The notes beneath the pieces were generated by a model. The model saw nothing but the letters and a program-made list of their open reading frames with translations. It made no database searches and was not told the origin of the DNA. Below are positions 4,701-30,585 of a stretch of 33,696 nucleotides of DNA, piece after piece. The stretch is from a virus: the IMG/VR virus record IMGVR_UViG_3300030419_005044, positions 1 through 33,696 of that record; one strand, written 5' to 3'. A program made the translations under genes and the position numbers. The first letter of the stretch is position 1. Every line of letters starts with the position of its first letter.

Positions 4701-5475
4701 AGTAAAAAGTATCAACGTCATTTCTTTCTCCCCAAACTTTACAATTAGGTAAATCTGTATTCTCAATACCACAATTACATAGATAACAATCATTCCCTAT
4801 AAAATGAAACTCTATATTCTCGTCTAACATTTGCTCGGCTATTTCATAAATAAACTTTTGATTTTTATTTTCATGAAAAAGGCCAACGTTTAATATATGA
4901 GTTTTCTCGGGATCCAAACCGAGACTCAATAAGGTCTCTTTTCTGTCCGGTCTTTCCTTAGGTGTTATTTCATAATCCCATATATAGCATTCGGCATCCG
5001 GAAAGACTTCTTTTATCTTCTCTGGATGATAGTCGGAAACGCAAACATAACCATCTGGAATATGAACTTTGTTACTGAAATCAAAAGAGTTAGAATGACA
5101 AGTTTCTAATATTTTATAACTCCTGTTTTCGTCATATATTTTCTCTAGTAAATCTTCTGGAAATCCATTATATTCAAAATTTTCTGGTATTTCATTAAAA
5201 TGTATGACATGTGGTTTAAATTCTTGTATAATCTCCCAAAGCCTGTTTCTCTCTTCTTTCCAATTATCGGAGAAGCAAGGCCCTACGCATTCATGACTTT
5301 TTTTGCCAACAAGATTAATTATTTTATCTTTTTGTATATTATATGAACCATAATTATTAAATTCTGCTACAAAAACCTCGCTTTCTAGCATACTAACTTT
5401 TATAAGCTCATACAACCACTGGGGAGAGCCTCCAGTAGACAAATGCATTGGTACATATAATATTCTTCTCTTCAT
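1735..5475 (-). CDS. Four-domain fusion: GT4 + GT2 + autotransporter-type heptosyltransferase (GT9-like) + FkbM methyltransferase
   Basis: A 1246-residue protein. Residues 1-333 look like a GT4 glycosyltransferase, with the E-x7-E region FFPSKRELNPLSVKEA. Residues 334-600 look like GT2: LYTSFYNNARYI, TDDFSKDDS, and the metal-binding LIDADDG near 418-424. Residues 601-737 are unassigned. Residues 738-1020 are GT9-like (IKLGSSSLGDSIAWTPYAEE, FIGLGSGLSWLAWGL) and carry four cysteines (974, 977, 991, 1003) in the CNSCW/WCPEH/ECSK arrangement of bacterial autotransporter O-heptosyltransferases (TibC type), where cysteines hold an iron. Residues 1045-1246 are an FkbM-type methyltransferase (LVVDLGSSRG; DFLKFDIEGEE). 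The start overlaps the upstream carbamoyltransferase stop by ATGA. Likely role: building and methylating a glycan, possibly on a Ser-rich virion protein. The acceptor is not shown by the sequence. Confidence 0.85.
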   Translation of the reverse strand: MKRRILYVPMHLSTGGSPQWLYELIKVSMLESEVFVAEFNNYGSYNIQKDKIINLVGKKSHECVGPCFSDNWKEERNRLWEIIQEFKPHVIHFNEIPENFEYNGFPEDLLEKIYDENRSYKILETCHSNSFDFSNKVHIPDGYVCVSDYHPEKIKEVFPDAECYIWDYEITPKERPDRKETLLSLGLDPEKTHILNVGLFHENKNQKFIYEIAEQMLDENIEFHFIGNDCYLCNCGIENTDLPNCKVWGERNDVDTFYSCMDLFFFPSKRELNPLSVKEAISWGMPVLMNRIESCDLYKKYENNDKVTFIDDVDAKEHIKEIIKNPRKKEDLRIALYTSFYNNARYIPGLYEQIRSQTYSDWKWFVTDDFSKDDSVKDALLDLASRDTRVIYCEQKSKKEMFWNPQRFVTKDCDYLALIDADDGIYPKALEFLNYMLKKNPKPFTFSTWFHQYKDNVHDSENITNADFSFPQGNWHDYLDKHEKDLIDSGKFDWSYLRSFRFFGALRGHKNQNNVNIEVNDPVKTVSEDSIRMAQLQKYGDYILFPRPMYKVLNHNQSHATPSNVSKEQERVGKQNLYDSIESTKEYKDNKILPTYYNFFDELCALSISDIQHEVDRKNLCLITNRKITETESNDIQDLYFDHNFYVNRYEEDVDYFFLDLKSFNIVELKEIFNKLKTLRNFKLNAYYLLESEDDEACRNEAAQIMREATNGRPFSWNTFCRNMIFRYKQQKPKKKKKVLIKLGSSSLGDSIAWTPYAEEYRVHNDCDVYLFTFRNDLYRNSYPNIKFVDDLKDVEGIDFDDRLEIGWFDHTPDWVKNAEEQRAASYHLGLPHKEVRAKVDVVNKERVIKDKYVCISVQSTTQCKYWNNPTGWDQVVEYLNSKGYKVVCIDKHASFGGRDKLNHLPKGVINKTGDFELQERITDLHNCEFFIGLGSGLSWLAWGLNKDVILISGFSNEKTEFKTPYRIINKDVCNSCWNKHKFDSGNWNWCPEHEGTDREYECSKKITFEMVKESIDRLILKREVYSSAKNWTDVFNEVIEKDIYQKFNKIKHGDLVVDLGSSRGPLYHVNRGKNITYLGVEAFKDNIEIFEKTLTPEEKSKVTILNKYFKEAPEKEVVYESSYYSNLVKSKIGSINFRQILNEVDNRKIDFLKFDIEGEEIKMFEDSYELILQNVRAMSGEVHGTNRNFTRAVDLIKRFKDDKRIDLKITSLDGIDITDKFWSRFLKETGRHEYYTEVIVHLKVL

Positions 5476-6494
5476 CTATAAATTAAATAATGAACTAGCA
5501 TACCATAAGATATGCCGTTATCTCCCGGAGAAGGCTGCACGAAAAAGTTTACATCTTCGTAAGTCTTACTTAGTCTTTCGTTCAGTAAAACATTCAGGGC
5601 TCCTCCACCAGTTAGACAAACATTCTTATAAGAGTTATTCCAATAAATTTGGAAATTTTCTATAAAAATATTTTCAAAAGCTAGCTGACAATTAAAGGCC
5701 ATATCATAAGCCTCTTTGCCCTCTAAGCAATTAAAGCTTAAATCGCCAAAATGCCTCAAATACGCCTCTGAAACATTTAAGCTCTTAGGATCCTCAATAT
5801 TAAAATACTCGTATATTTTATCGTAAAGGCCTTGGTCGAAACTTCCGTAAGCTGAGAGACCCATTATTTTTCCCGGATAACTCACTCCATTATGTTCATG
5901 CTTGCTTGTCTCGAGTAAATTTCCTAGCTCTGGCTTCCTTAATTCTTTTATGAAGTTCCCCATCCTAGCGTATTTAGTTGGAAAGGGGTTATTATAATGA
6001 GGGTTGATCTGATCAAAATTTATATTGTTTTTATTTAGATCGTAAACACAAAAAGTTCCATCATTTCCTCCTCCATCATAGCTAAATACTATGGCATTGT
6101 CGAATCCGCTAGATAAAAAAGAACCAGCAGCGTGAGCCTTATGATGCGAAGTTACATCTTGATCTGTATGAAAGACTTTTTTTATTTTAAAATAATCCTT
6201 TACAAAGCCAGCTATCTCCTCTGAAGTATCCCAATCAAATAAACCTATATCAAAGCTACTAACAAATATGCCTTTATCAATTAATATAGTATTAATGTAA
6301 TCTAAAAAATTTACTATATCTTCATTTGATACACCTTGAGAGTGTCTAGAAAAAGGATTAAGCAATCTCGTAAAGTACCTACTGCCAAATATCCTTTCGA
6401 ACTCTAGTATAAAAACAGATTCGCCAACGTAGACAGTTATGTTTCCATCATGCCCATTACCTGCGTAGAAGCTTATAACACTATCTGCAACCAT
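5472..6494 (-). CDS. NodU/CmcH-type carbamoyltransferase, catalytic (Kae1-like) domain only
   Basis: A 340-residue protein matching the N-terminal domain of O-carbamoyltransferases: SFYAGNGHDGN at the N-terminus, HHKAHAAGSFLSSGFD, FSYDGGGNDGT, KIMGLSAYG, and the nucleotide-binding LTGGGALNVLLNERL followed by PSPGDNGISYG. This ASKHA-fold domain transfers the carbamoyl group to a sugar hydroxyl. Family members are usually about 550-600 residues with a C-terminal YrdC-like domain that makes carbamoyl-adenylate. Here the gene stops right after the first domain and no partner is seen in the window. The start overlaps the upstream gene by 14 bases, and the downstream glycosyltransferase start overlaps its stop (ATGA). 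Probable role: carbamoylating the glycan made by the neighbouring enzymes. Confidence 0.82.
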   Translation of the reverse strand: MVADSVISFYAGNGHDGNITVYVGESVFILEFERIFGSRYFTRLLNPFSRHSQGVSNEDIVNFLDYINTILIDKGIFVSSFDIGLFDWDTSEEIAGFVKDYFKIKKVFHTDQDVTSHHKAHAAGSFLSSGFDNAIVFSYDGGGNDGTFCVYDLNKNNINFDQINPHYNNPFPTKYARMGNFIKELRKPELGNLLETSKHEHNGVSYPGKIMGLSAYGSFDQGLYDKIYEYFNIEDPKSLNVSEAYLRHFGDLSFNCLEGKEAYDMAFNCQLAFENIFIENFQIYWNNSYKNVCLTGGGALNVLLNERLSKTYEDVNFFVQPSPGDNGISYGMLVHYLIYR

Positions 6495-6816
6495 AAAATT
6501 TAATACTTAAGTTGTTAATCATTTCCAATATATAGGGATGAGACCACCAAAATTCGTTATGTCTGCCGGGGCTTGGCTTACTAAATATATGCTCCTCAAA
6601 AGGCACATTATTATTAAACATAGTAGCTCTAAAAAAGCTGAAAGGAAGATTCTCTCTGCCTACACAAGGAAAAAATAACTTGTCATCATTAAAAAAAGGG
6701 GGATCAAATAGACTAAACTTATCCGAAGTAAATACAGGCTGTCTATTTATAACTTTAATCTCGGCGGCAAGCGGGTAAGCTACATTACCTTTATGTTTCT
6801 TGAAGACATCCTTCAT
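6481..6816 (-). CDS. Hypothetical protein in the sugar cluster
   Basis: A 111-residue protein that I do not recognise. It is aromatic-rich, with FSLFDPPFF, NDDKLFFPCVG and HNEFWWSHPY, suggesting a compact globular domain. There is no signal peptide or membrane segment. It starts one base after the stop of the GT9-like gene and overlaps the carbamoyltransferase start by 14 bases, so it is co-translated with both sugar enzymes. A role in the same glycan pathway is inferred from position only. Confidence 0.6.
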   Translation of the reverse strand: MKDVFKKHKGNVAYPLAAEIKVINRQPVFTSDKFSLFDPPFFNDDKLFFPCVGRENLPFSFFRATMFNNNVPFEEHIFSKPSPGRHNEFWWSHPYILEMINNLSIKFYGCR

Positions 6817-6817
6817 T

Positions 6818-7849
6818 TTACTTTCTATTAATCACAGCTTCTAAAACCGTCTCCCATGAAGGCTGACAGTCATAATTAGGCCTACCTTCCAAACAGTAAG
6901 GTAAAGGGGGCACGCTATTTATTGTAGCATGCTCTATTACGGAATATTGAGGGTCAGAAGCACAGAAGGAAGAACAGGATCCGCCAACAAAAGTGTACTT
7001 ATATTTCTGACTACCTTTTCTATACGGAGCCCTCCATAAAGGATTGATTGATGCTCCAATCTGCACAATATAAGTATCAGTACATCCAGCTAAGTGAAGC
7101 TGCCCTGTATCTAGTGTTACACAGACTTCCGAATTTTTTGTTATATAGTAGTCCTGATCCAAGCTAGTTCTGTTCATAAAACTAACCCCTTCAAACTTAA
7201 AATCCCCAAAAGCATAACAAGACTTATCATGGTCATATTGACCGGGTTCTTTCGACTGATCAAACCCAACTAAGGCAACTTTATAGCCATGATCATTTAA
7301 GCCTCTTATCAGCTCTCTATAGCTTTTTTCGGGCCAAGTCCTGCTGGGCCAGTTCTTACCAATATGTATAACTACATAATTATTATTATTAATAAACTCT
7401 TGATCTTCTCTTTCAAATTCTACAGGTCCGGGATAATAATCATAATGCATTTCGTCTGGCCTAAGATCAAACCCCAACTCTATGCAATGTATCCTTCTAA
7501 TGTCATACAAACCGTACTTTGATTCTATGCCGTTTTTGTCAGGCTTACCTATGGCATTAAAACAATTAAACACTTCGTAATTCTTATAATATTCTTCATC
7601 AAAGTCATTTATATTAATTGTAAATTCTACATGCGGGTTATGATCAAATAAAAAAGGTTTACTAGTGCATACAATAATTTTTTTAGCGTAAGAATGCGCC
7701 AATTTCCTTATTGTTGGAGTAGCCGCAAGAGTATCTCCAAAAGAAAAAGAGTTGATCTTTAGAATGACATCTTTAGCCCTTTTCTGACCCCTTGATTTCT
7801 CAGTATTAAATAGAGGAGCTTGCTCCTCATAAAAGTTAGCTGAATTCAT
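6818..7849 (-). CDS. GT9-family (heptosyltransferase-like) glycosyltransferase
   Basis: A 343-residue protein with GT9 features: ILKINSFSFGDTLAATPTIR near residues 29-48, VVIHIGKNWPSRTWPEKSY near 159-177, and the nucleotide-sugar site VTLDTGQLHLAGC followed by IGASINPLWRAPY near 244-276. Four cysteines follow (292, 296, 319, 328), resembling the cysteine finger in the GT9-like domain of the downstream fusion, though the spacing differs. GT9 enzymes usually transfer heptose, to LPS or, in the TibC branch, to protein Ser. The acceptor here is unknown. It is the first gene of the sugar cluster and is separated from the upstream lectin-like gene by 37 bases. Confidence 0.8.
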   Translation of the reverse strand: MNSANFYEEQAPLFNTEKSRGQKRAKDVILKINSFSFGDTLAATPTIRKLAHSYAKKIIVCTSKPFLFDHNPHVEFTININDFDEEYYKNYEVFNCFNAIGKPDKNGIESKYGLYDIRRIHCIELGFDLRPDEMHYDYYPGPVEFEREDQEFINNNNYVVIHIGKNWPSRTWPEKSYRELIRGLNDHGYKVALVGFDQSKEPGQYDHDKSCYAFGDFKFEGVSFMNRTSLDQDYYITKNSEVCVTLDTGQLHLAGCTDTYIVQIGASINPLWRAPYRKGSQKYKYTFVGGSCSSFCASDPQYSVIEHATINSVPPLPYCLEGRPNYDCQPSWETVLEAVINRK

Positions 7850-12032: not shown

Positions 12033-13202
12033 TTAGACTGCGAGTCCAACGATTGCACGAGAGTCGATACAAACGCGTCCTTCTTCCAAAGAGCCGTAGA
12101 AGCCAATTCTCTCATTACGTTGAGTGAACTGATCGTCAGGCTGAGTGGTGAAAGTATCGCCAGTATCAGATTCCTGAGCAATAGCGCGAACAAACGCACC
12201 CTTACTGTTATCAACACCAACACAAAGCTCATGAGTACCACCAGCAAAAGCAATAGCTGTATTAGCAGTAGAACCATGAGGAGCGATGTTGCCAGAATCG
12301 AACTCATCAAACAGGGTGTTGTACTTCTGTCCAACTCCGAGTTCGTTAAGCTCAGTGATATTCACACCGTAAATCTCCTGCATTCCTGCAGAATTGAAAA
12401 TATCGGTACGAATATTATCTGGAAGCGCAACGTCGCTTCTTGGTGTATCTTGACCAGCACCCTTAGTATTCAAAGGCTGATAAGCAAAAGCGCGAATCTG
12501 TTCTTTGATCTCAGGGCTAACATATAGATCTGTGATACCAGAGCTATAAGCGGTGTCAGGAGTACCGTCTGCCCAAGACTGATTGATTCTCTTATTAAGA
12601 GTCATCAGCTTGTTCAAGTCGGCCAACTGGAACCTATTGGTGTTATAAGCTGGAATAACGTGAGAGCCAGCGGCCAGATCGGAAATGCCAACAGAGTCAG
12701 CGGTAACAGAACTGGTGCTAGCGTTAGCCAAAGCGTTTAGAGCCACAGCCCAAGCATTTCTCTCCTGCTTAAGCAGAACTTCCTGAGACATGCGCTCAAT
12801 AAGCTTGCTTACAACATCAAGTCTTGCCTGTCTGGCATACTTCTTAGTGATAGAAACAGCTGCATCCAAACGATATGTTGCGATCTTCAGCTCTTGAATC
12901 GCAGATACGTCCTGTGAGGTCGGAAGACCACCAGCAACATTCTGGGACCAAACGCTAACGTAACCATCATTGGTTTCGTTGTAGTAAAGATCTAAAGGAT
13001 AACTAGCTCCCTCATCTTGATTAAATGGAGCATCAGTATAGATTGCTCCAGCCGTAGCGGCCTGCTGCAAAACCTTTTGGATTACAGGGCCGAGAAATGC
13101 CGCAAAAGCTTCCGAAGCTTCACGAGCTACAAGCTGATTCTTAGAGCCCATGGCTTTAATCAGTTCAACTTGTTCTGGGGTATTTTTTAACTTAAGTCTC
13201 AT
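12033..13202 (-). CDS. Major capsid protein (HK97-fold candidate)
   Basis: A 389-residue protein. It opens with an amphipathic N-terminal arm (residues 1-50, TPEQVELIKAMGSKNQ). It then has a mixed core with IQELKIATYRLDAAVSITKKYARQAR, LIERMSQEVLLKQERNAWAVALNAL (a long spine-like helix) and SSGITDLYVSPEIKEQIRAF, as in phage major capsid proteins. Assignment rests on length, these patterns and the order protease-scaffold, small virion protein, capsid. It has one of the strongest Shine-Dalgarno sequences in the window (AGAAAGGAGAT) and a strong dedicated terminator, as expected for the most abundant virion protein. No N-terminal propeptide cleavage site can be called by eye. Confidence 0.8.
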   Translation of the reverse strand: MRLKLKNTPEQVELIKAMGSKNQLVAREASEAFAAFLGPVIQKVLQQAATAGAIYTDAPFNQDEGASYPLDLYYNETNDGYVSVWSQNVAGGLPTSQDVSAIQELKIATYRLDAAVSITKKYARQARLDVVSKLIERMSQEVLLKQERNAWAVALNALANASTSSVTADSVGISDLAAGSHVIPAYNTNRFQLADLNKLMTLNKRINQSWADGTPDTAYSSGITDLYVSPEIKEQIRAFAYQPLNTKGAGQDTPRSDVALPDNIRTDIFNSAGMQEIYGVNITELNELGVGQKYNTLFDEFDSGNIAPHGSTANTAIAFAGGTHELCVGVDNSKGAFVRAIAQESDTGDTFTTQPDDQFTQRNERIGFYGSLEEGRVCIDSRAIVGLAV

Positions 13203-13893: not shown

Positions 13894-14541
13894 TTAATAA
13901 CTAATATCAAATTGATCCACACTAAAAGCATTCTTATACTTATCGTATGTGTTAGCCTCAGAAGCTTGAGTCGAAGCAGGGACGACGTCAGTATCTTCTT
14001 TTCCTCTGTCAATCGCGTCTTCCACGACATTTTCAGATTCATCAGAAGCTTTGACCTCTTCTTTCTGCTCTTCGGATTCAGCTACTTTAGCTTCTTCTTC
14101 CTTCTTAGCCAAGACTTCTCTTGACTTGTCTCGAAGCAAAACGTCAATCTTAGTAGAGAAAGATTCCCATCCTTCTGTATCAAGATCTTTGATCTGTTCC
14201 GCAAGAACTTGGCGATCGTTATCTTCTAAAGCAAACCTTTCGTCCAAAGATGCCATTCTTTGATTGAATAACTCTTCGGCTTCTTTTTCTGCTTTTTCGG
14301 ATTCCAGAGTGCCAAGCTTATCTGCAACAGTTTCCAGTTCTGCTTTGACTTTATCATAGTCTACCGTAATAGACTCGATTTTCTCTTGAGCTTCTTTGAG
14401 ATTAGCTTCCACCTTTTGTTTTTCGGCTGAAAATCTCTCGGAAGCTTCCTTGAGTTCCGATTGAATAAAATCAGAAACAGCCGAGGCAGAAAGCTCCTTC
14501 AAAGAATCGTTCGTGATGTCTTTAATACTTTCTATTTTCAT
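13894..14541 (-). CDS. Nested in-frame scaffold protein (internal start)
   Basis: ATG 14541 is in frame with the protease-scaffold gene and begins residue 283, exactly where the coiled-coil scaffold starts (MKIESIKDITNDSLKEL). GAGGAG lies 9 bases upstream, one of the better Shine-Dalgarno sites in the window. The product would be a free 215-residue scaffold, the arrangement known from phage lambda C/Nu3, where the scaffold gene is nested in the protease gene. The site inside a coding frame and its spacing are seen; translation from it is inference. Confidence 0.7.
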   Translation of the reverse strand: MKIESIKDITNDSLKELSASAVSDFIQSELKEASERFSAEKQKVEANLKEAQEKIESITVDYDKVKAELETVADKLGTLESEKAEKEAEELFNQRMASLDERFALEDNDRQVLAEQIKDLDTEGWESFSTKIDVLLRDKSREVLAKKEEEAKVAESEEQKEEVKASDESENVVEDAIDRGKEDTDVVPASTQASEANTYDKYKNAFSVDQFDISY

Positions 14542-15387
14542 AATAGTTTTCTCCTCGTTTTGGATTATTACATTTTTTTCTTGTTTTTGTGAAGTATTTT
14601 CAACTTCAGCAAAAGTATCTTCGTCCTCTTCTTTAGTAGGATCTTCTGAGGGCTCTAGGTTATCTTTTGTAGAAATGCCTTTTACATCGGCAGCAGGAGT
14701 CTCTGTGAGACCTATGCCCAAAGGCACAACTTCGCCAACTACCTTTCTGTAGACGAACATTCCGTCTTTGGTTTTACCTTCTCCCCCTAAGGCTTTTAGA
14801 TCTTTTTCCATAGAAAGAATTTCTTCTTCGTCTTCAACGATTAATCCATTCTCTATGTTCTTATCACTTCCTTCTAAAAGCACTAAATTATAATCTTTAA
14901 AACCTAATTCCCAGCTTGCGCTAATCTTCATATAATCCTCGCTACTTGGGTCAGCTGACTCCTCAATCAAGTCTGCTATTCTTTGGTTTACTACCTTCCA
15001 GATAACTCCACCTAAAGTAACATTAAAAGGTCCTTTTATTTCTTTTACTTCTTCTTCTGTTAATGGTTTATCTGTTCCAAATTCTGAAAAACCTGCTGTC
15101 AAAATAGTACCAATTACTTTATCTCTATTATGCTCAATATTAATTGGTTTATTTTTAAAGTCTTTATGAAAGGCTAAAGCAGTATCTGTATCAACTACAT
15201 CCCCATTTCTATTAACCCTATTAGCAACAAATGCGTTAAAAGCTATAGGCAAAAGATCGACTTGTTTCTCATCTACTTCTGGAATAAATTGAGCGACCTC
15301 GATAGCAGAAGCTAAAGCTAAATACTTATCTTTTTCTTCTGATACAACTGGCCTTACGTTTGAGCTGAAGATTGTAGTATATTTCAT
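13894..15387 (-). CDS. Prohead maturation protease fused to scaffold
   Basis: A 497-residue protein. Residues 20-175 look like a capsid maturation protease: LLPIAFNAFVANRVNRNGDV, the histidine-bearing KPINIEHNRDKVIGTI (His86), and KISASWELGF (Ser156/Ser158), the H and S positions of the assemblin/prohead protease fold. VVPLGIGLTETPAADVKGIS follows near 220-239. Residues 245-282 are an acidic linker. Residues 283-497 are a highly charged coiled coil (KEASERFSAEKQKVEANLKE, EAQEKIESI, then a Glu/Lys-rich stretch) typical of a scaffold. Start ATG 15387 overlaps the upstream stop (TGATG). The catalytic triad cannot be fully fixed by eye. In capsid assembly the scaffold shapes the shell, then the protease removes it. 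Confidence 0.8.
   Translation of the reverse strand: MKYTTIFSSNVRPVVSEEKDKYLALASAIEVAQFIPEVDEKQVDLLPIAFNAFVANRVNRNGDVVDTDTALAFHKDFKNKPINIEHNRDKVIGTILTAGFSEFGTDKPLTEEEVKEIKGPFNVTLGGVIWKVVNQRIADLIEESADPSSEDYMKISASWELGFKDYNLVLLEGSDKNIENGLIVEDEEEILSMEKDLKALGGEGKTKDGMFVYRKVVGEVVPLGIGLTETPAADVKGISTKDNLEPSEDPTKEEDEDTFAEVENTSQKQEKNVIIQNEEKTIMKIESIKDITNDSLKELSASAVSDFIQSELKEASERFSAEKQKVEANLKEAQEKIESITVDYDKVKAELETVADKLGTLESEKAEKEAEELFNQRMASLDERFALEDNDRQVLAEQIKDLDTEGWESFSTKIDVLLRDKSREVLAKKEEEAKVAESEEQKEEVKASDESENVVEDAIDRGKEDTDVVPASTQASEANTYDKYKNAFSVDQFDISY
14551..14556 (-). promoter_or_regulatory. Internal ribosome binding site for the nested scaffold
   Basis: GAGGAG on the minus strand with a 9-base spacer to the in-frame ATG 14541, lying within the acidic linker codons of the protease-scaffold gene. 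Confidence 0.65.
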
Positions 15388-15680
15388 CAGATTATATAAT
15401 AGTTCATTGTCACGTTACCGGCGCTACTGTAGACACCAGAACTAGTTGGTACTTGAATACCTTGGTTTAAATTTGATGCACCAGCTGGAGCGTAAGCTAT
15501 GATCGTATCTGCTCCTGCGGCTGAAGTACTTAGAGTTGTAGCCGCTGAAGTTAGTATATCTGTGATTACAATAGTATCCCCACTGCTTGCTGCGACTACG
15601 GCACCGGCCCCTGCCTTATTAGCCGTTCTTGATACAGAAGGTACTCCTTGAGTTTGTTGTGAATTAGTTGATCTGGCCAT
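15387..15680 (-). CDS. Small Ala/Ser/Thr-rich virion protein
   Basis: A 97-residue protein with no enzyme motif, low charge and many small residues (AGAGAVVAASSGDTIVITD, SAATTLSTSAAGADTIIAY, GNVTMNYYII). The alternation of small and beta-branched residues suggests a beta-rich structural protein such as a head decoration or fibre-tip piece. It sits between a helical unknown protein and the protease-scaffold gene, whose start overlaps its stop. A Shine-Dalgarno (AAGGAT) is 8 bases before the ATG. Confidence 0.55.
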   Translation of the reverse strand: MARSTNSQQTQGVPSVSRTANKAGAGAVVAASSGDTIVITDILTSAATTLSTSAAGADTIIAYAPAGASNLNQGIQVPTSSGVYSSAGNVTMNYYII

Positions 15681-15695
15681 TTTAAATTATCCTTA

Positions 15696-16151
15696 TTATT
15701 CAATTACACTATTTATCCAATCTTTTGCCTCTGATCTAGCTTGTTCGTCACTTTGAAAATATAAATCATCTACATCTCTAAAATCATAGCTGCCTAATCC
15801 ATATCTTTTTACTTCTCTTTCTGCTTCTTTTATTTCCTCCATAGAAGGCTCGAAATGGTCTCCGTCATCCACTGAACCAGCAGAGCAAGTATTAAGAAAA
15901 ACGTTTACATGAGCTAAAGCTTCAGTTGTTTTAAAAGATTGAGAAAAACTGTCAACAAAAACTTGTTTTAATTTTTCTGAGGTAACTTGTCTTTCATAAT
16001 CGTAATTGTGTTGTTCCGCTTTAATAGTTAGTAGTTGCATCACCTTACTGGAGAACTCTAAAGCCGCGTCTCTTTCCCCAGAAATTGGACTAAGTTTTTT
16101 ACCGAAAGAGTATTCTACATCAAGCGACATCATTTTACTAAGAGATTCCAT
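15696..16151 (-). CDS. Hypothetical helical protein in the head module
   Basis: I choose ATG 16151 (151 residues) over a GTG at 16175, which falls inside a GTGTATA promoter-like element. The protein is mostly helical and acidic (ERDAALEFSSKVMQLLTIKAE, then SMEEIKEAEREVKRYGLG) and ends in SDEQARSEAKDWINSVIE. I do not recognise a family. It directly follows a terminator and precedes the small virion protein by 15 bases. A connector, adaptor or head-assembly role is possible but not shown. Confidence 0.55.
   Translation of the reverse strand: MESLSKMMSLDVEYSFGKKLSPISGERDAALEFSSKVMQLLTIKAEQHNYDYERQVTSEKLKQVFVDSFSQSFKTTEALAHVNVFLNTCSAGSVDDGDHFEPSMEEIKEAEREVKRYGLGSYDFRDVDDLYFQSDEQARSEAKDWINSVIE
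15703..15709 (-). promoter_or_regulatory. GTGTAAT element upstream of the small virion protein
   Basis: GTGTAATTGAAT on the minus strand, 22 bases before ATG 15680, within the last codons of the upstream gene. The following 12 bases resemble those of the site at 16926. Confidence 0.35.
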
Positions 16152-16168
16152 TAAGTTACCTAAAAGTT

Positions 16169-16175
16169 TATACAC
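16169..16175 (-). promoter_or_regulatory. GTGTATA element directly after the second terminator
   Basis: GTGTATAAAC on the minus strand lies about 25 bases beyond the terminator at 16201-16233 and 17 bases before ATG 16151. The position supports a promoter role. Confidence 0.45.
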
Positions 16176-16200
16176 TTATTTTTAAAAAACTTATAAAAAA

Positions 16201-16233
16201 AATAAAAAAACCCCTCAAATAAATGAGGGGTTT
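16201..16233 (-). terminator. Rho-independent terminator after the 213-residue virion gene
   Basis: On the minus strand CCCCTCA-TTTATT-TGAGGGG forms a seven-pair stem, extended by AAA/TTT pairs, followed by TTTTTTTATT. It starts about 25 bases after the stop codon at 16258. Confidence 0.92.
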
Positions 16234-16257
16234 AAATAGGGAAAGTGCGGCTAAGGA

Positions 16258-16899
16258 TCAGAACGGAACACCGTCTGACATATCACCAGCAATATCAGGT
16301 CTTGCGGCAGAGTCATCGTCGCCAGCCTGAATGACACCGGATTGATAGTACTTAAAGTTTACTGTATAAGATCTCGTATAAGTATTTACAATTCCAGTTC
16401 CATTTGTGACGGCTGTATTCGAGAGAGAAAGGTCACCTCTTGTGACTGTCATACTGTTAATACCGCTACCAAAATCTACGCCTGAAGTATAAGCCCTGTA
16501 AGCTCCATCAAGTATAGCGTTAACAAATTTCTGAGCTCCACCATCAACTTCGTTGCCATCGGTGTCAAGGAAGTCACCAGAAGTCAAAGAATAATCAGAG
16601 ACAGTTGGGTCTCCCATGATATTCAATGGGCCATGAGTGTACTCTGTGGAACCAACTGATTCTAAAGTTTCGCCGTGTAGAGGAATAACAATCCCTGTTA
16701 CATGCCCACCGTTAATCTCAGAAGGTGGAAGTGGATCGTCCCCATCACTAGCATGAGCTGTCGCGTCGGCGTGGACCATATATTTGATTTTACCTGCGCC
16801 AGCGCCACTAGTAAGGTAACTAAGTTTACTACCAACATCCCCGCCTCCGGGGTTCTTGGCTATCATAAAAGCGTTTAGTGCTGAAAGTTCTCCTGCCAT
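16258..16899 (-). CDS. Abundant virion protein, candidate tail tube or decoration
   Basis: A 213-residue, acidic, beta-rich protein (VTGIVIPLHGETLESVGSTE, GINSMTVTRGDLSLSN, NTYTRSYTVNFKYYQSG). It has a strong Shine-Dalgarno (AGGAGA), a GTGTAATT-type element 26 bases upstream and its own terminator, the same signals as the major capsid gene, so it is probably made in large amounts. This would fit a major tail tube protein or a capsid cement protein. No sheath or tape measure gene is in the window to settle it. Confidence 0.5.
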   Translation of the reverse strand: MAGELSALNAFMIAKNPGGGDVGSKLSYLTSGAGAGKIKYMVHADATAHASDGDDPLPPSEINGGHVTGIVIPLHGETLESVGSTEYTHGPLNIMGDPTVSDYSLTSGDFLDTDGNEVDGGAQKFVNAILDGAYRAYTSGVDFGSGINSMTVTRGDLSLSNTAVTNGTGIVNTYTRSYTVNFKYYQSGVIQAGDDDSAARPDIAGDMSDGVPF

Positions 16900-16925
16900 T
16901 TTTAATTTCTCCTATTATACATTCA

Positions 16926-16932
16926 ATTACAT
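16926..16932 (-). promoter_or_regulatory. ATGTAAT element upstream of the abundant virion protein
   Basis: ATGTAATTGAATGTATAATAGG on the minus strand contains the element and then a TATAAT-like hexamer; it lies 26 bases before ATG 16899 in a 62-base non-coding gap. Confidence 0.45.
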
Positions 16933-16961
16933 TGTTTTTTTCCGTTTTGGAAATTTTATTT

Positions 16962-18122
16962 TTAAACCGTTTTGTCTAAATCTCCCAATTTCATTAATTC
17001 TTTTAGCTTCTCTTCTGGGGTCGCTATGCCGCCAATAATCGTGAATACAGTAAGGTTGTTTTTATCACCACTGTATATCCCTCTATGTACTACACTTCCA
17101 GACCTAAGAATTCTAGTCAATTGATCAAAAGCTTCATCAAGACTAGACTGCGGGATATTATCCAATACCTCTTTGCCTCCAATAAGAATAGCTCCAGCCG
17201 AGTTAGCTGTAGAGATATCTATACCTCCTGACATGCTACCGCTTTGAGCGATACTTCTTACAGCTCTAGAAATACTTACAGGATCATCCCATTTAGGAAC
17301 AGGCGTAGCACCAAAGATAGTAATACCAGAATCCAGAACATTTTTGTAGTCACTAGAATCAAAGGAAGAATAAGAGCTATCTTTTGAAGCTGTCATATTA
17401 AATAAATGAAATACTCCTGCTGTACTCATATTAGCTGTCTGCCAGAAATTAGAGACAGAAACGTTTGAGTAGAGCTTGCTGGTCTTTTCGTTATCTATGA
17501 TAACCAAAGGTGAAACGATCCCTTGGTCGACTAAAGTACAAGCTTCTTTTAGAGTCTCGTAAGCATTAGCATTAACTTTTCTGCCTTCTGAGTATTTTGG
17601 CAAAGCCAGTATAACTCCCACCTTCTTAGAGCCAGACTTAATTGTTTCTTGTAGCTCTTTAGCGGTCTTAACAAGAGGGACAAGAGTACCTGCTCCCGAA
17701 CCTCCTCCAGCTCCTGCGCATACAAAAATTCTGTCTACGTCCTCACCAAAAGAACGACGCATAAAATCAAGTACATCATCTTGCTTCTCCTCAAAACACT
17801 TTGCTGCAACAGATCTATCCTTTCCTGCTCCTCCGGCACCGATACAAAGCTTATTCTCTACGTTAATAGAATTCAAGTCTTGCTGAGCTGTATTAACAAT
17901 GCCAATTTTTCTATAGCCTAACTTATGAAAACTCTCTGCGATTCTAGATCCACCTTGACCAGCCCCAATGAAGGCAAATTTAAACGCTCCATCTACTTCA
18001 TCTTTAACTTCCTTTTTCTCCTCTGGCTCAGGTGGCAAGGGGATGTCAGGTACCATAACATCAATTTCGGCTGCACCAAAATACTGATTTACATCTTGAA
18101 TATTTTCTTGATTTTCACTCAT
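16962..18122 (-). CDS. FtsZ/tubulin-like GTPase inside the head gene cluster
   Basis: A 386-residue protein. Residues 1-47 are an acidic, Pro/Glu-rich extension. Residues 48-205 match the FtsZ/tubulin nucleotide-binding domain in order: FAFIGAGQGGSRIA (T1 loop, 49-62), IGIVNTAQQDL (73-83), CIGAGGAGKDR (93-103), the tubulin signature AGAGGGSGAGT (136-146; usually GGGTGTG), and ALPKYSEGRK. A possible T7-loop Asp is in SGGIDISTANS (298-308), but the second acidic residue normally used for GTP hydrolysis is not obvious. The C-terminal domain has LTVFTIIGGIATPEE. FtsZ-family proteins form GTP-dependent filaments; PhuZ of jumbo phages centres DNA and moves capsids. Here the gene lies 4 bases after portal. 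Its lineage is unclear. Confidence 0.85.
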   Translation of the reverse strand: MSENQENIQDVNQYFGAAEIDVMVPDIPLPPEPEEKKEVKDEVDGAFKFAFIGAGQGGSRIAESFHKLGYRKIGIVNTAQQDLNSINVENKLCIGAGGAGKDRSVAAKCFEEKQDDVLDFMRRSFGEDVDRIFVCAGAGGGSGAGTLVPLVKTAKELQETIKSGSKKVGVILALPKYSEGRKVNANAYETLKEACTLVDQGIVSPLVIIDNEKTSKLYSNVSVSNFWQTANMSTAGVFHLFNMTASKDSSYSSFDSSDYKNVLDSGITIFGATPVPKWDDPVSISRAVRSIAQSGSMSGGIDISTANSAGAILIGGKEVLDNIPQSSLDEAFDQLTRILRSGSVVHRGIYSGDKNNLTVFTIIGGIATPEEKLKELMKLGDLDKTV

Positions 18123-18126
18123 TTTA

Positions 18127-20013
18127 TTAAATTTTACTTTCGTATAGTAAGCTAGCTAAATAATCATCTATTTGATGTTCGCAAGCTATATTTTGTACTT
18201 CTTTAACTTTTTCAGAGTTAGTGTCTAATGGGTTATCTACATACGCTTGACTTTTCTCTAACCATTTTTCTGATGGCTCGTTAGCCATAATAATTTTACA
18301 CACTTCCTCTGAGAGATTTCTAATTTTATTAGTAACTCTTTTATTCTCATATTTAAGTTTAAGTTGGTCTTGAACTTGGCTCTCGAGCTTTTCAGCTAGA
18401 GACAGATTCTCTTTAATTTTTTCAACACTAAACTTTTGAGAGCCACTTGTATTCTCTCCAACGGGCGAAACTTTTTTAGTCGTTTGTGGTGCCTTGCTTC
18501 CCTCTGGCCTACCTTCAGGTTGCTGACCTCCCCCCACAAGAGGAGAATAGAAACCTTCTTCTTTCAGGTCTTTAAATCTTTTTTGAGAATCTATAGACTC
18601 GGATGGCTCTGGAAGGCGACCTGTGTTAATAGCCTCGAGTCCTTCTTCGGCAGTCAAGACGCCATATTGAAGAAGTTGCGCAACCACGCGATTCCAAGTA
18701 GTTTTGTCTTTTAGCTCTATCTCTTGGAAGTGAGCTTGTGGATAATTTTTAAAGCCTAGAGACTTACAAACTCTTTTGATTTCAGGAGCTAAGAACTGGT
18801 TGATAAATGCATCTCTTCCTTGTTTTAATCTTTCTATAAATACCTGAATCTTAATACTAGTATTAGCAAACTTGTCTTCTCCTACTAATATATTGTTTAA
18901 ACCCATTTGAATATCTTGATTCACTACGTTGTATTTCTTGGGGTCAAGTATGCCAGCGATGTCAGGGATAACAAACTTTGCTTCAGTAGTATAATCTGAG
19001 ACTAAAACTTTTCCAACAGACTGGTTCTCGAAAAGCTTCTGCATTGTTTCAATACTTCTTTGATTAATATTAAGGCTTCCGTCTTTAAGTTCGGAACCCA
19101 TAGTAATCAGCAGGATAGCTTGATTAGTAGTACGCGTTAGAGCCATGTCCATTTTTTTCATCTCGGACTTCCAGTTAATATCTTCTAATACCGGATATCC
19201 CATTGGGACAGCAAATGGCTCATAATCTTGCTTCTTGTAAAATACAGGCGTAACTTTTTCCGGGTCTAACTTAATGCTAACTATGCCAACATTTCTATCT
19301 TTTAAAAGTTTTTTAGTATCAGGATCTAAAGTGTCATATACTTGCTTATCTTCTTCGGTTCTAGGATTTTTAAGTCTTTCTAATTCGTAATCGCTAAGGA
19401 CTTTGTAATAAAGACCAGAGAAGAAAGATATGTTACCTCCCATTTGTATATCAGCTGGATTCAAAACTACATACCTAGAAGGAAGAGTATTTGCGTCTGC
19501 TGCTTTTAATATGCTGGCACCATAGGTCTGGGTTATTTTTTTAACATCATCTTGTTGTATTTCTGTATCAAACCTATGAATAAAAACGTTTCCTGAACGA
19601 TAGTACTCTCTAAAAAACCTATCTAAAAAACTTTGTAAATCTATCTTTCTATAAAGAGCTTCAAGGAAATCTCTGGACTTTTTGCTGCCTCCAGTAAAGT
19701 AAATTTTTGTAGCGGAAAACTCTGTCATTAAATCAATGACATTTCTAAACACCGAAAAATTATAATAAGCTTTTTGACAAAGAATAACAACATCTCTAAC
19801 ATCTAAAGAGCTTTTATTGTTTACTCCTTTCGTGTACTTATACGGAACAAGACCATTGTCGATATTTTCAAACCTATTTGTCCTCTCTATTTGACCTCCG
19901 ACATTCCTTCTCGTTCTCGTCGATTGATTGTCTAAGGTGGTATAAGGAGAAGCCGCGAAACTTGTCATCATTGGCTTGATCTGATCTTCTTGCTTTTTTG
20001 TCTTCTTTGTCAT
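18127..20013 (-). CDS. Portal protein
   Basis: A 628-residue protein. The portal pattern is seen in NNKSSLDVRDVVILCQKAYYNFSVFRNVIDLMTEFSA, SFLDRFFREYYRSGNVFIHRF, VVLNPADIQMG (the usual 'x-L-x-P' strand), YNVVNQDIQMGLNNILVGED and IQVFIERLKQGRDAFINQFLAPEIKRVCK, a wing/stem-type layout. The C-terminal 150 residues are charged and partly coiled coil (VEKIKENLSLAEKLES). Portals form a dodecameric ring at one capsid vertex through which DNA is packaged. It lies between the terminase and head genes and precedes the FtsZ-like gene by 4 bases. There is no clear Shine-Dalgarno. Confidence 0.85.
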   Translation of the reverse strand: MTKKTKKQEDQIKPMMTSFAASPYTTLDNQSTRTRRNVGGQIERTNRFENIDNGLVPYKYTKGVNNKSSLDVRDVVILCQKAYYNFSVFRNVIDLMTEFSATKIYFTGGSKKSRDFLEALYRKIDLQSFLDRFFREYYRSGNVFIHRFDTEIQQDDVKKITQTYGASILKAADANTLPSRYVVLNPADIQMGGNISFFSGLYYKVLSDYELERLKNPRTEEDKQVYDTLDPDTKKLLKDRNVGIVSIKLDPEKVTPVFYKKQDYEPFAVPMGYPVLEDINWKSEMKKMDMALTRTTNQAILLITMGSELKDGSLNINQRSIETMQKLFENQSVGKVLVSDYTTEAKFVIPDIAGILDPKKYNVVNQDIQMGLNNILVGEDKFANTSIKIQVFIERLKQGRDAFINQFLAPEIKRVCKSLGFKNYPQAHFQEIELKDKTTWNRVVAQLLQYGVLTAEEGLEAINTGRLPEPSESIDSQKRFKDLKEEGFYSPLVGGGQQPEGRPEGSKAPQTTKKVSPVGENTSGSQKFSVEKIKENLSLAEKLESQVQDQLKLKYENKRVTNKIRNLSEEVCKIIMANEPSEKWLEKSQAYVDNPLDTNSEKVKEVQNIACEHQIDDYLASLLYESKI

Positions 20014-20014
20014 T

Positions 20015-21148
20015 TTAAATTATCATAATATGTCTGCCTATTCCAGCAGCTCCACCACTAGTAAATAGGGTTCCGTCTGGCAACCCTCCGGTATTTGGAT
20101 GAGCTGGTAAACCTTCAAGTATCATAAGTCCACCTGAAACACCGCTCACTGTCATTATTTGGTTTAGAGTAACGTCACCACTTAGATGGACATTTGACCC
20201 GCTAAAGTAAGATCTGTAATTACCCAAGCAGACCTTTTCTCCGCTTACGTTTAATGGGTTAGTACCATATGGCCCAAAATTTATTCTATCATCATCATAA
20301 ACGTCCAACAAAGGTAAACCTGCTTTATCAGTAACAGAGAAAACAGGGGCGTCTGCTCCATACCCCGGAGTCAAGGTAACTAAAGCGCCACTAGCATCAT
20401 CAAAACTAACAGACTTATTAGAGTTGACCCTCATTGTGACTCCGTTATCACCCAACTCGGCTAGATTAGTTTTAAGTCCTAATGTAAAATTCTTCTTAGC
20501 TGTGAAATTAGTAGAAGCATCCGATAAAACATTATTAATTGATGTAGTAAGATTTGTTCCCGTTGTTTCTAGGCTGCTTTTGAGATCACCACTACTGACC
20601 GAAACATAACCCGTCATTTCGGGATATCCAGCAAGCTTCATCCAACCAGCTTTGTTTGCCGAGTCTCCAGTAGCAACGAAAAGCCCTTGGGTGTCATCAT
20701 GCCCAGAGGAAAAAGCCAAGGCTCCAGATGGGGAGCTAACAGAAAAGTCTCCAGAACCTGTATGAAAAAAACTTCCAGACTTAAGAAATTCTCCGCTAGT
20801 AGTTGAGAAATTCCCAGATATAGTTTCTATTTCGGTCTGAAGAAAGCCACTTGTTTCAAAATTATGCGTAACTGCAAAACCTGACACATCTGCAGATTTA
20901 TTAAGTAGAAAGTCTCCGCTATTATCTAAAGCACCAGAAACGCTAGAAGTTAGCCCAGATGTTCTGGACATAATTTCCCCACTATAGCCAGTCATACTTT
21001 TCGGCCCTCCACTTAGAGGGATAAAGCCGGATGTATTGTCGTGAGTATAAAATCCAGATGTATACGTAGAAGAACCCGAAAGCTTTTTATTAAAAAGAGC
21101 TACAAATTCCGAATCATTAATTTGACCACTTGAAATTGAACCAGCCAT
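20015..21148 (-). CDS. SG-rich virion/fibre protein, paralogue of the gene at 10677-11510
   Basis: A 377-residue protein beginning MAGSISSGQINDSE. SG or TG recurs through the first 180 residues (TSGFYTHDNTSGFIPLSGG, TSGLTSSVSGALDNSGDF), suggesting an elongated repetitive shaft. The second half (ANKAGWMKLAGYPEMTGYVS, GAPVFSVTDKAGLPLLDV-like stretch, YRSYFSGSNVHLSGDVTL) resembles the distal part of phage fibres. The N-terminus matches the 277-residue paralogue, so both may dock on the same virion site. It lies between terminase and portal, an unusual place for a fibre. Confidence 0.6.
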   Translation of the reverse strand: MAGSISSGQINDSEFVALFNKKLSGSSTYTSGFYTHDNTSGFIPLSGGPKSMTGYSGEIMSRTSGLTSSVSGALDNSGDFLLNKSADVSGFAVTHNFETSGFLQTEIETISGNFSTTSGEFLKSGSFFHTGSGDFSVSSPSGALAFSSGHDDTQGLFVATGDSANKAGWMKLAGYPEMTGYVSVSSGDLKSSLETTGTNLTTSINNVLSDASTNFTAKKNFTLGLKTNLAELGDNGVTMRVNSNKSVSFDDASGALVTLTPGYGADAPVFSVTDKAGLPLLDVYDDDRINFGPYGTNPLNVSGEKVCLGNYRSYFSGSNVHLSGDVTLNQIMTVSGVSGGLMILEGLPAHPNTGGLPDGTLFTSGGAAGIGRHIMII

Positions 21149-21174: not shown

Positions 21175-23028
21175 TTAAAAAAACATAACAGGCTCAAAAG
21201 TTTGCTTATTAGTGTTAATTTCCGTGTTAGTTATATCGTTATAAAGCTTAAGACCCCAATTCGCCAACATTAGTGAAGAATAATTATCTTTTCTTGCTTT
21301 GTTAGCAGAAGTGGATCTTTTAAGGTGCTGCGGCAGATCAAAGTTCTGAGACCCTCTAGCTGTTGCTTTATGCTCCACTAAACTACATTGTTTCTTAGTT
21401 TGGTAGATCATATCGTCTTGATGCTCAATGAAATCAAGCATAGACCAATCTTTTCTGTCGTCAATAAAAATGAGTTTTTTAGGATATGGCAACCTTATAG
21501 AGCTTGTCCTATTAAAGAAGGATTCATTAGAAGCTGTCCTAGAGGCAAACCAAATCTTTTTATAATCTATACAAGCTTGCAAATGTTCATTAGCTCTTCG
21601 TATAAAGTTGCTAGTAAATACTTGATTAAAACAAATTTGATGATTTTCTTGATTGTATTTTATTTTAGCTTGTTTTAAAGTTTTTTGATATTCTGCGCCT
21701 TCCGCATCAGAGTTCAAAGGTATGGTTTTTAAATTTATACCAGCATCTTTAAAGAATTGAGATTCATTACAACTATCTAAATATGTATCAGAGCCAGCAT
21801 TATCAAGACATATAAAAACAATATTAAAAGCCTGAAGAATATAAGCTAAATATTTTACATGTTTATTTAAGCTCCCAAGGCCAGCATAAGTATGTACTAA
21901 AGTTCCCTGTCCTGTATCATCATCTATCTCCATGACGGACATAGCAAAATAGTCAGCAGTAGGACTATCGCTCATATTAGGGTCAATACCCATTACATAG
22001 CGCTTTCCACTTCTTCCGACCATTAGAGTACAAGGTTCCTCATCTCCCTTGAGGGTACACATCTCCATCTTTTTAGCGCTGAAATAACTATCGCTACCGT
22101 CCGTGAACTGAGCGCAATATTCTCGCTGAAAAGAAAAGTGAGAAGATCCTCCTTCTTGAGCCTCCTCAATAATAGTTCTGTCTATCATCTCTTCGGGTAA
22201 CGCCTCGTACCCCATTTGAGATACAAAGTATTTAGCGTCTCCTACTTCTTCGTCTGACTGAATTTTGTTTACCCACTCCTGATAAGTCTTATAAAGATTT
22301 TCAAAAGTATAACTAGCTGAAGATAGAGCTATCATCTTAGATTTATTTTCGAACTTAGTTCTTTCTTCCTCTTTTAAAACCCCATCGGCAATAAGTTTAT
22401 CTTCGAATTCTTTAACTTCCATTCTTCTCTTCATGTCCTGAGGAGCAACAAGGAACGGCATTAGAACGTTTCTGATTATATCTTCTGGCAGTAGGAGATA
22501 CTCGTCAAGGACAAGTATATTTGCACGAAAACCGCGAATCTTTTCTCCGCTTAAAGGGATGGCTGTTATTGTTCCGCCATTTATTTTCCATTCATATTGA
22601 TCATTTCTTTTGGTTTTAGCTCCAAAAGCTTGAGCAAGAAGCGTGGCCTCTTTTGTCTCAACTATCTTTTCTATGTTATTAAAAATAAACCTAGCAGTAC
22701 GAAAGGTTGGCCCAGCTATAAGTATTTTTGTATTTGGTTCGAATATGCACTGTAAGAAGCAATATATAGAAGCTATAAATGATTTACCGCAACCACGACC
22801 CCAGACGCACATACTAAAATTCCTATTGAACATTCCCCTTAAGGTAATCTCTTGGAAAGGGGCTAGTTTTATTCCAGTCAAAAGATAGGTTGTAAAAAAT
22901 AAGTTATTTCTTAAGAACTCAGCTAAAGTAATCCTAGCTTCTTTGTCCTCTAGAAAGCCTTTTATCTTAGCTAACCTAGAGTTAACATCTTCAACTTCTC
23001 TTTCGTACTTTTCTGGAGCTGACCACAT
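21175..23028 (-). CDS. terL: Terminase large subunit (DNA packaging ATPase-nuclease)
   Basis: A 617-residue protein. The ATPase domain has Walker A GRGCGKS (77-83), a following ILIAGPTFRTARFIF segment, Walker B ILVLDEY with catalytic Glu176, and the coupling motif IALSSASYT (233-241). The RNase H-like nuclease domain begins with YVMGIDPNMSDSPTADYFAM (first Asp at 349) and continues with FICLDNAGSD (Asp409). It translocates DNA into the prohead through the portal and cuts concatemers. The length is normal. Its start overlaps the stop of the nuclease gene as TAATG. Confidence 0.95.
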   Translation of the reverse strand: MWSAPEKYEREVEDVNSRLAKIKGFLEDKEARITLAEFLRNNLFFTTYLLTGIKLAPFQEITLRGMFNRNFSMCVWGRGCGKSFIASIYCFLQCIFEPNTKILIAGPTFRTARFIFNNIEKIVETKEATLLAQAFGAKTKRNDQYEWKINGGTITAIPLSGEKIRGFRANILVLDEYLLLPEDIIRNVLMPFLVAPQDMKRRMEVKEFEDKLIADGVLKEEERTKFENKSKMIALSSASYTFENLYKTYQEWVNKIQSDEEVGDAKYFVSQMGYEALPEEMIDRTIIEEAQEGGSSHFSFQREYCAQFTDGSDSYFSAKKMEMCTLKGDEEPCTLMVGRSGKRYVMGIDPNMSDSPTADYFAMSVMEIDDDTGQGTLVHTYAGLGSLNKHVKYLAYILQAFNIVFICLDNAGSDTYLDSCNESQFFKDAGINLKTIPLNSDAEGAEYQKTLKQAKIKYNQENHQICFNQVFTSNFIRRANEHLQACIDYKKIWFASRTASNESFFNRTSSIRLPYPKKLIFIDDRKDWSMLDFIEHQDDMIYQTKKQCSLVEHKATARGSQNFDLPQHLKRSTSANKARKDNYSSLMLANWGLKLYNDITNTEINTNKQTFEPVMFF

Positions 23029-25083: not shown

Positions 25084-26024
25084 CGTCTTATATATAAAAA
25101 ATCAGTTAACGGAATCTTATTTCGTGGTATCTTAAAAAAAGTGTCTTCTTTTATTAGCATTTGCTTTTTTGCCTGCCAACTGTCAGGATGACACACAAAA
25201 TCAATGGTAAGTAGCTCTCTATCTGTTCTTACGCATTTTTGTCCTTTATGAAAACCATTAGTCATCGCAAATATAACGTCACCTTTTTTACCTGTCAAAT
25301 GCTTGACTCTTTGCTTGCCATAAAAAGTCTCTATTTCCTCATCTTGCCATCTGTATCTATCAGTTAAATTTTCCGGCTTCTCGTCGACACTCCCCTCTAT
25401 ATAAGTAAAAGGTCCATCTTCAACCGAGTCTACATCTTTAAGGTAAACGAAGGCTTTAAAAAAGTAAAGAGCATTTGGATCTACGTGATATAAAGTAGTG
25501 TTATCACTTTGTAAATTATTAGCAAAACTTTTTCTTAGATTTAGAGTTCCTATGGCTGGCATGCATTCAAAGAAGCTTTTAGCTACGTTAACCAAAGCGT
25601 CATCAAATATTATCTCTGAGATCTCCGGCACATTATACAAGGGCTCGGGGACTGATAAGAAAAGCTGGTTATTTCTTGCCTCTGATTGATTCATTGTATT
25701 AAACCCATATTCACCAACTTGTCTTCCTAAGTCAGAATCTATGTCTAGGCGACCTCCATCTAAAATATGGTTTAATTTTTTGCTTATCTCGTCTAAAATA
25801 TACTTTTTATGAGACAGGCCTCCCTCTAGCTTTAACCATCCTTTAGATCTAAGCTCTCTTGAGTGGTTCTTGCTTCCGTTGACTTCGTTATATGGTATGG
25901 GATACTTTATTCTTCTAGTGTTTATAGATGAAATAGTATTCTCTCTATCTTCTTCTAAAAAATTTCCAATAGAGCCTGTCTCGCTTACTTTTATAGTATT
26001 TTTTAACTGAGGGATATCAATCAT
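25080..26024 (-). CDS. 2-oxoglutarate/Fe(II) dioxygenase, phytanoyl-CoA dioxygenase-like
   Basis: I place the start at ATG 26024, which overlaps the sigma-factor stop as ATGA, rather than the upstream TTG. This gives 314 residues. The iron site is readable: YHVDPNALYFFKAFVYL (His180, Asp182) and GFHKGQKCVRTDRELLTIDF (His259, Arg267/269), the HxD...H...R pattern of the PhyH superfamily, with GPFTYIEGS and KKGDVIFAMTNGFH between. Phages carry such oxygenases to modify nucleotides, proteins or host metabolites. The substrate here is unknown. It sits in an operon with the sigma factor and terminase genes, so it is probably expressed with the middle or late genes. Confidence 0.8.
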   Translation of the reverse strand: MIDIPQLKNTIKVSETGSIGNFLEEDRENTISSINTRRIKYPIPYNEVNGSKNHSRELRSKGWLKLEGGLSHKKYILDEISKKLNHILDGGRLDIDSDLGRQVGEYGFNTMNQSEARNNQLFLSVPEPLYNVPEISEIIFDDALVNVAKSFFECMPAIGTLNLRKSFANNLQSDNTTLYHVDPNALYFFKAFVYLKDVDSVEDGPFTYIEGSVDEKPENLTDRYRWQDEEIETFYGKQRVKHLTGKKGDVIFAMTNGFHKGQKCVRTDRELLTIDFVCHPDSWQAKKQMLIKEDTFFKIPRNKIPLTDFLYIRR

Positions 26025-26719
26025 GACCAATCTAAATCGTTTTTGTCTAAAATTTTCCTAGCTTTAGTTATAATTGATTTTTGTATATTTTTTATTTGTT
26101 TATATCCGGGAGTTCTATTCTTCTCGGTAGTTTTAAAATTTAGCTTTTTAGCTATCTCTACCTCGGTCTCATTATCTATATAAAATCCCTTGTAGACAAT
26201 CCACTCATTAGGTTTTAAAATTTCTTTTAGCTTTTCGTTGAGTTTCTTTATCCCCATTTCTATGTTCGACGAAGAGACTTCAACATCACGAACTTCGCTT
26301 TGATGATTTTCTAAGGGTAAAGCCATCTTAACGTCATAGGCAGACTTTTTCTTAGCTAACCAGTTTTTAAACAAAGGGCATCTCGCGTCCTGAGACCCAT
26401 ATATAGCACATCCCGAGTCAGGCTCGGCTGCTGCACATTTCAAACAAGGCTTACAGTAGTTGCTGTAATTATTGCGAATTAAATTTTTAAGTTGATTAGA
26501 TATTATTCTATTCAACCAAGGGGAAAGCGGCTTGTTTTGGTCATACAAATGCCATTTTTTAAATATATGTATTTTCAGTATCTGAGAAATATCATCAAAA
26601 TCCATCCAAGAAATAGAAGTTAAAGTCCATTTATTTTTTCTTTTAGATATTTCTTGGTCAATGATTTCAATACAATTCTCAAATTCTTTTTTGGGTTTAG
26701 CTGCCTTCTTCTTGGGCAT
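26021..26719 (-). CDS. Phage sigma factor-like protein with cysteine-rich insert
   Basis: A 232-residue protein. Residues 33-86 (SISWMDFDDISQILKIHIFK and SPWLNRIISNQLKNLIRNNY) match sigma-70 region 2, and 155-225 (KLKEILKPNEWIVYKGFYI, ETEVEIAKKLNF, GYKQIKNIQKSIITKARKIL) match region 4 with its helix-turn-helix. Between them a segment with Cys at 89, 92, 95, 104 and 114 looks like a small metal-binding insert. Phage sigma factors such as T4 gp55 direct late transcription from short -10-type elements. The basic N-terminal tail (PKKKAAKPKK) may aid DNA contact. A zinc-ribbon gene lies 9 bases upstream. It is a good candidate reader of the GTGTAATT element. Confidence 0.75.
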   Translation of the reverse strand: MPKKKAAKPKKEFENCIEIIDQEISKRKNKWTLTSISWMDFDDISQILKIHIFKKWHLYDQNKPLSPWLNRIISNQLKNLIRNNYSNYCKPCLKCAAAEPDSGCAIYGSQDARCPLFKNWLAKKKSAYDVKMALPLENHQSEVRDVEVSSSNIEMGIKKLNEKLKEILKPNEWIVYKGFYIDNETEVEIAKKLNFKTTEKNRTPGYKQIKNIQKSIITKARKILDKNDLDWS

Positions 26720-30578: not shown

Positions 30579-30585
30579 GTTTAGT

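Follow-up and report, generated by a model that had tools for sequence, protein, structure and literature searches.

Results

A tubulin-like gene adjoins the portal gene

The window analysed here is a linear fragment of 33,696 nucleotides, comprising the 33.7-kb IMG/VR virus record IMGVR_UViG_3300030419_005044. A first-pass annotation had placed a reading frame for an FtsZ/tubulin-like protein at 16962-18122. The frame and its 386 residues were borne out, while the strand had to be corrected. The frame (P0001), assigned from PF00091, PF13809 and PDB sequence and fold comparisons to a TubZ-like GTPase of the tubulin/FtsZ superfamily, starts with ATG at 18122 and runs down to 16962 on the minus strand, and the plus strand over the same interval is full of stops. 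The portal gene (18127-20013, minus strand) ends 4 bases upstream of the tubulin start. Relatives of this portal match PHROG portal families (best, 8.6e-6), tblastn of the window portal against the portals of Bacillus phages Slash and Stahl gave E values of 6e-6 to 2e-5, and Foldseek with a weak AlphaFold2 model (pLDDT 58) returned almost only portals. A PDB profile search with the portal returned nothing. The gene upstream of the tubulin is really a portal, and with the portal identified by PHROG, tblastn and Foldseek, both the 4-base spacing and the head-gene setting described earlier are confirmed. The contrast with PhuZ drawn there also holds, as phiKZ PhuZ adjoins neither portal nor terminase.

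The large terminase gene (21175-23028, minus strand) belongs to the same gene run, two genes upstream of the portal gene, and was recognized by PF03237 (E 1.7e-8) and PHROG terminase families. Downstream of the tubulin gene lies a fast-evolving gene of 213 aa (16258-16899, minus strand), probably encoding a virion protein, which is swapped for other small genes in divergent relatives. A consensus scan detected an intrinsic-terminator-like hairpin (16233-16208, minus strand; 10 bp stem and T run), which closes the portal-tubulin gene run after the gene 3′ of the tubulin. Because this terminator-like hairpin occurs only past the gene following the tubulin, a single transcript may cover the terminase, portal and tubulin genes. 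Further along are a prohead protease/scaffold candidate (13894-15387, minus strand), which has no library name and is proposed from its position and reading, with its order between the tubulin and capsid genes kept in relatives, and a major capsid protein candidate (12033-13202, minus strand), which weakly matches PF25209, Phage_capsid_4 (E 0.016), and keeps its position and length in relatives.

Several other features were observed in the window. Upstream of the terminase run, a protein with Sigma-70 region 2 (26021-26719, minus strand; PF04542 over cut-off) is a candidate late-gene sigma factor. A 519-aa protein (30577-32136, plus strand) carries ankyrin repeats (PF00023/PF12796) followed by a class III nucleotidyl cyclase-like region, in which residues 335-465 weakly match an adenylate-cyclase model of NCBIfam, an unusual fusion for a phage. 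A sugar-modification cassette (1735-7849, minus strand) comes after the tail fibre genes and encodes a 1246-aa protein in which several glycosyltransferase domains are fused to an FkbM methyltransferase, together with a carbamoyltransferase and an enzyme of the heptosyltransferase type. A long low-complexity repeat region (12-1216) has a proline-rich frame on the plus strand and a collagen-like one on the opposite strand.

The tubulin domain and its active site

The 386-aa protein scored 46.3 bits (cut-off 33; E 7.6e-12) with PF00091 (Tubulin) in Pfam, far beyond what chance could explain, and PF13809 (Tubulin_2) was also over its cut-off (E 3.7e-7). Both families were matched by 26 of 26 aligned relatives, each with a PF00091 E value of at most 0.001. 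The two motifs on which the first-pass annotation based its identification, GAGQGGS of the T1 loop (residues 53-59; 17946-17966, minus strand) and the tubulin signature GAGGGSGAG of T4 (residues 137-145; 17688-17714, minus strand), were confirmed within an FtsZ/tubulin-type domain, the latter by alignment and a motif tally. Loops T1 to T6 all align with those of FtsZ and TubZ, and GQGGS of the T1 loop is invariant in the family alignment.

It had been doubted whether the hydrolysis residues of the T7 loop were conserved, which turned out to be wrong. The T7 synergy loop FDSSDY (residues 254-259; 17346-17363, minus strand) stands opposite VDFADV of E. coli FtsZ, with the catalytic acids D255 and D258 aligned with the FtsZ DxxD, and TubZ aligns as well. 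The FDxx[DE] motif was kept in 243 of 243 family proteins longer than 300 aa, and the FtsZ T7 asparagine is replaced by S, A or T in the phage family. Given the full loop alignment and the invariant T7 acids, hydrolysis in a stacked filament is therefore predicted. D190 of PhuZ is presumably the equivalent T7 residue. Mutation of this catalytic aspartate in PhuZ (D190A) yields non-dynamic filaments (PMC4244570). A tubulin fold for the 386-aa protein is close to certain, and the protein is likely an active polymerizing GTPase.

The AlphaFold2 model of the protein reached a pLDDT of 80 and a pTM of 0.82. The tubulin fold expected from the motifs was recovered, with TubZ structures retrieved first. 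A short C-terminal helix and tail with a conserved KLxELxKLGD motif (16983-17015, minus strand) was seen in the alignment and in the model. Residues 1-36, on the other hand, had a pLDDT below 50 and are predicted to be disordered. Despite this prediction for the N-terminal tail, D21, P25, D26, P28, P30, E38 and D41 are invariant in 26 sequences. They belong to a motif D..(3)PDIPxP...E.K.E.KD at residues 21-46 (17985-18062, minus strand), and a PDIP-like motif is present in most of the 102 unique family proteins. This conserved stretch is a candidate binding peptide, and the N-terminal peptide (residues 1-46) may tether the tubulin to a partner.

The phage tubulin compared with TubZ, FtsZ and PhuZ

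We were particularly interested in the branch of the superfamily to which the protein belongs. When the family profile was compared with the PDB, TubZ came first (E 4.6e-18) and FtsZ next (4e-11). In direct profile comparison, TubZ-like proteins scored 64-111 bits, gp138 of Bacillus phage G 82 bits and E. coli FtsZ 30.6 bits, and phiKZ PhuZ reached 4.7 bits (E 0.7). The FtsZ equivalog level was not reached, since the NCBIfam ftsZ score of 59.9 bits lies far below the cut-off of 295. The best PDB matches of the AlphaFold2 model were TubZ protofilament chains (E 6.7e-23, TM about 0.75). In a viral structure library the best match was A0A6J5RW92 (E 3.6e-31, TMq 0.82, 27% identity), and PhuZ proteins ranked after it. 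A phylogeny with FtsZ, PhuZ and TubZ was set aside, as its branches were too long; it separates the family only, and its placement of PhuZ is unreliable. By sequence and predicted structure, the phage protein is TubZ-like and is neither FtsZ nor PhuZ.

TubZ of Bacillus-type plasmids (B. cereus, 4ei7; B. thuringiensis, 2xka) is like the phage protein in the GTPase loops and the T7 acids, at 18-20% identity. Unlike plasmid TubZ, the phage tubulin is fixed in a head operon, has an N-terminal peptide of its own and lacks a TubR-like gene upstream. FtsZ shares the GTPase domain, all loops and the DxxD of T7. PhuZ (phiKZ gp39, 201phi2-1, RAY) is likewise phage-encoded, accessory and patchily lost, and the portal-adjacent tubulin could, like PhuZ, serve capsid movement. 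However, PhuZ has no profile-level sequence similarity to the portal-adjacent family and resembles it in fold alone. Moreover, PhuZ is expressed early from elsewhere in the genome whereas the present tubulin adjoins the portal, and phage tubulins of the PhuZ type go with a multisubunit RNA polymerase whereas the carrier contigs of this family, which may be incomplete, show none. The TubZ-like gp138 of Bacillus phage G (24.5% identity) was the only match in 50,697 phage records; it differs in having a 98-aa TubR-sized gp137 before it and nucleotide-metabolism genes around it. The gp137-gp138 pair suggests a TubZR-type system in phage G. A0A6J5RW92, named 'FtsZ Cell division GTPase' in an uncultured Caudovirales phage, is a distant relative already in databases and is longer (452 aa).

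Family size, fixed position and selection

Scans of viral contigs returned 65 and then about 200 relatives. The fetched viral loci, which include overlapping fetches from the same contigs, contained 245 tubulin copies (109 distinct sequences), one per locus. The tubulin nearly always comes just after the portal: in the 188 loci showing both genes they were always on the same strand, and in 149 they were immediate neighbours. Two scans of GTDB genomes, which were pattern-based and able to detect near relatives only, found no family member, and a host chromosomal origin was rejected on this basis.

The dN/dS of the tubulin was about 0.03, the lowest among the seven head-module genes compared. 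In 59 divergent loci its median identity to relatives was 63%, against 51% for the portal and 56% for the capsid protein, and the tubulin was the more conserved in 59/59 loci against the portal and in 49/59 against the capsid protein. Purifying selection on the tubulin is thus stronger than on the head genes around it. Tubulin and portal distances were correlated (r 0.91; 0.25 among distant pairs), which is not evidence of binding because the correlation mostly reflects shared ancestry.

Relatives without the tubulin gene

Eighteen loci fetched by capsid protein had the portal together with protease or capsid genes and lacked the tubulin. When L118 (about 4446-4470) was compared with L081 (7980-9143), the DNA aligned on both sides and the tubulin gene alone was missing. 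A likewise clean empty site was found in L097 and L094 compared with L078. The contigs of L118, L097 and L094 are short, so these phages may have a copy at another place in the genome; two long gene-minus contigs (140 and 154 kb) had no tubulin copy anywhere. A quick capsid tree forces at least 5 changes between presence and absence. Because relatives with an intact site lack exactly this gene, the tubulin is accessory and not an obligatory part of the head. PhuZ is accessory too, being present in 66% of chimallin phages (PMC10299810; see also PMC11724907). These natural gene-minus relatives provide a ready comparison.

Phages carrying the tubulin

Searches with positive controls found neither an integrase nor a ParA-type ATPase nor an RNA polymerase beta domain in nine gene-plus contigs of 57-162 kb, which may be incomplete. 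A search of the carrier contigs for phiKZ chimallin, which was insensitive and had no positive control, gave no match. The carrier contigs encode sigma-like factors. One of them (G011, 158 kb) encodes DnaB helicase, Toprim primase, PolIII alpha, ribonucleotide reductase, RIIA and a sigma factor, and represents a large, probably lytic phage that would depend on the RNA polymerase of its host. The carriers are marine phages, up to about 160 kb in size, and show no sign of a phage nucleus. The same 158-kb contig also encodes a TnpB-like protein with Cas12f1-like TNB and OrfB_IS605 domains (L251:5133-6608, minus strand).

Discussion

Because plasmid TubZ is closest by sequence and fold, the filament might segregate the phage genome as an episome in a carrier state, as in TubZ-type DNA partition of plasmids and some phages. 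However, a TubR-sized gene of about 90-115 aa lies directly upstream in 6 of 6 plasmid loci examined, and a portal or structural gene, with no TubR-like gene, takes that place in the phages. There is no repeat array near the tubulin, as a search for tubC-like repeats within 15300-20100 found two weak two-copy repeats only. Nine long contigs without integrase or ParA, and a G011 that looks lytic from its DnaB, PolIII, RNR and RIIA, also argue against partition. A partition cassette was accordingly rejected for want of TubR, repeats, ParA and integrase, and we regard partition as improbable. In nearly every locus the gene is flanked by the portal gene on one side and the protease/capsid genes on the other, which would suit a virion or assembly component, the tubulin fold serving as a portal/neck accessory or as an assembly GTPase in monomer or ring form. 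Yet heads are built without the tubulin, since L118, L097, L094 and the 18 loci fetched by capsid protein lack the gene, and the invariant T7 acids act only between stacked subunits, which makes such a component rather unlikely.

Phage inhibitors of FtsZ are known, and the first-pass annotation had considered a decoy of host FtsZ. A protein of the same superfamily could co-polymerize with host FtsZ or cap it and block the septum, giving longer cells and more virions. This idea is weakened by the profile comparisons given above, in which the family is much nearer TubZ and falls far below the ftsZ cut-off. With all catalytic loops in place and a very low dN/dS, the protein looks more like an enzyme than a decoy, and takeover genes are not usually placed in a late head operon; an antagonist of host division is therefore unlikely. 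A further possibility is that a nucleus-forming phage simply has its ordinary PhuZ at another genomic location; such a protein would also be a phage tubulin with a patchy distribution within its family. However, the family profile does not score phiKZ PhuZ, an RNA polymerase beta domain was not found in contigs as long as 162 kb, the phages carrying sigma-like factors instead, and the chimallin search, for all its insensitivity, gave no match. That the protein is such a PhuZ is thus highly improbable.

The reading we favour, although we consider the chances evenly balanced, is that the protein forms a TubZ-like filament, driven by GTP and expressed late, which positions or transports heads or DNA. 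A GTP-hydrolysing tubulin of the TubZ branch would be made with the terminase/portal gene run during head assembly and would polymerize into dynamic filaments inside the infected cell. Its disordered N-terminal peptide would bind a late partner, which may be the procapsid, the portal/terminase complex or phage DNA, and the filament could concentrate heads and genomes or move them relative to each other. Packaging efficiency would be raised, and heads could still be built without the tubulin. In favour of this role are the T1-T7 alignment, the fold match to TubZ protofilaments, the invariant T7 acids, the low dN/dS, the portal adjacency and the invariant residues of the N-terminal tail. The presence or absence of a single gene at an intact site, as in the accessory PhuZ (PMC11724907; PMC10299810), also supports it. 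Procapsids are carried along PhuZ filaments that treadmill and stall when the filaments are catalytically dead, and an unknown adaptor may bridge a gap of 3-4 nm (PMC8314001). By analogy, one may speculate that the N-terminal tail could itself serve as such an adaptor. Against the filament role, capsids would have no evident place to go in carriers that show no nucleus, and the gene neighbourhood bears on the cargo only indirectly.

Phage tubulins are known mainly from PhuZ jumbo phages and from TubZ partition systems, and those of nucleus-forming jumbo phages correlate with a multisubunit RNA polymerase (PMC7824862). The family described here is a distinct TubZ-like one, widespread and strongly conserved, and lies among the terminase, portal and capsid genes of smaller marine phages that show neither hallmark. 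No account of a portal-adjacent tubulin family was found in the literature; a 2025 BMC Genomics paper on chimallin/PhuZ phages (PMC12625630) might hold one. More tentatively, the family may be a separate tubulin lineage for head assembly and packaging in non-nuclear marine phages, with the N-terminal peptide binding the procapsid or the portal-terminase complex and packaging organized in the open cytoplasm. If so, cytoskeletal handling of capsids would have arisen, or would persist, without a phage nucleus. If the tubulin handles capsids or DNA, cytoskeletal phage assembly would not be tied to the phage nucleus.
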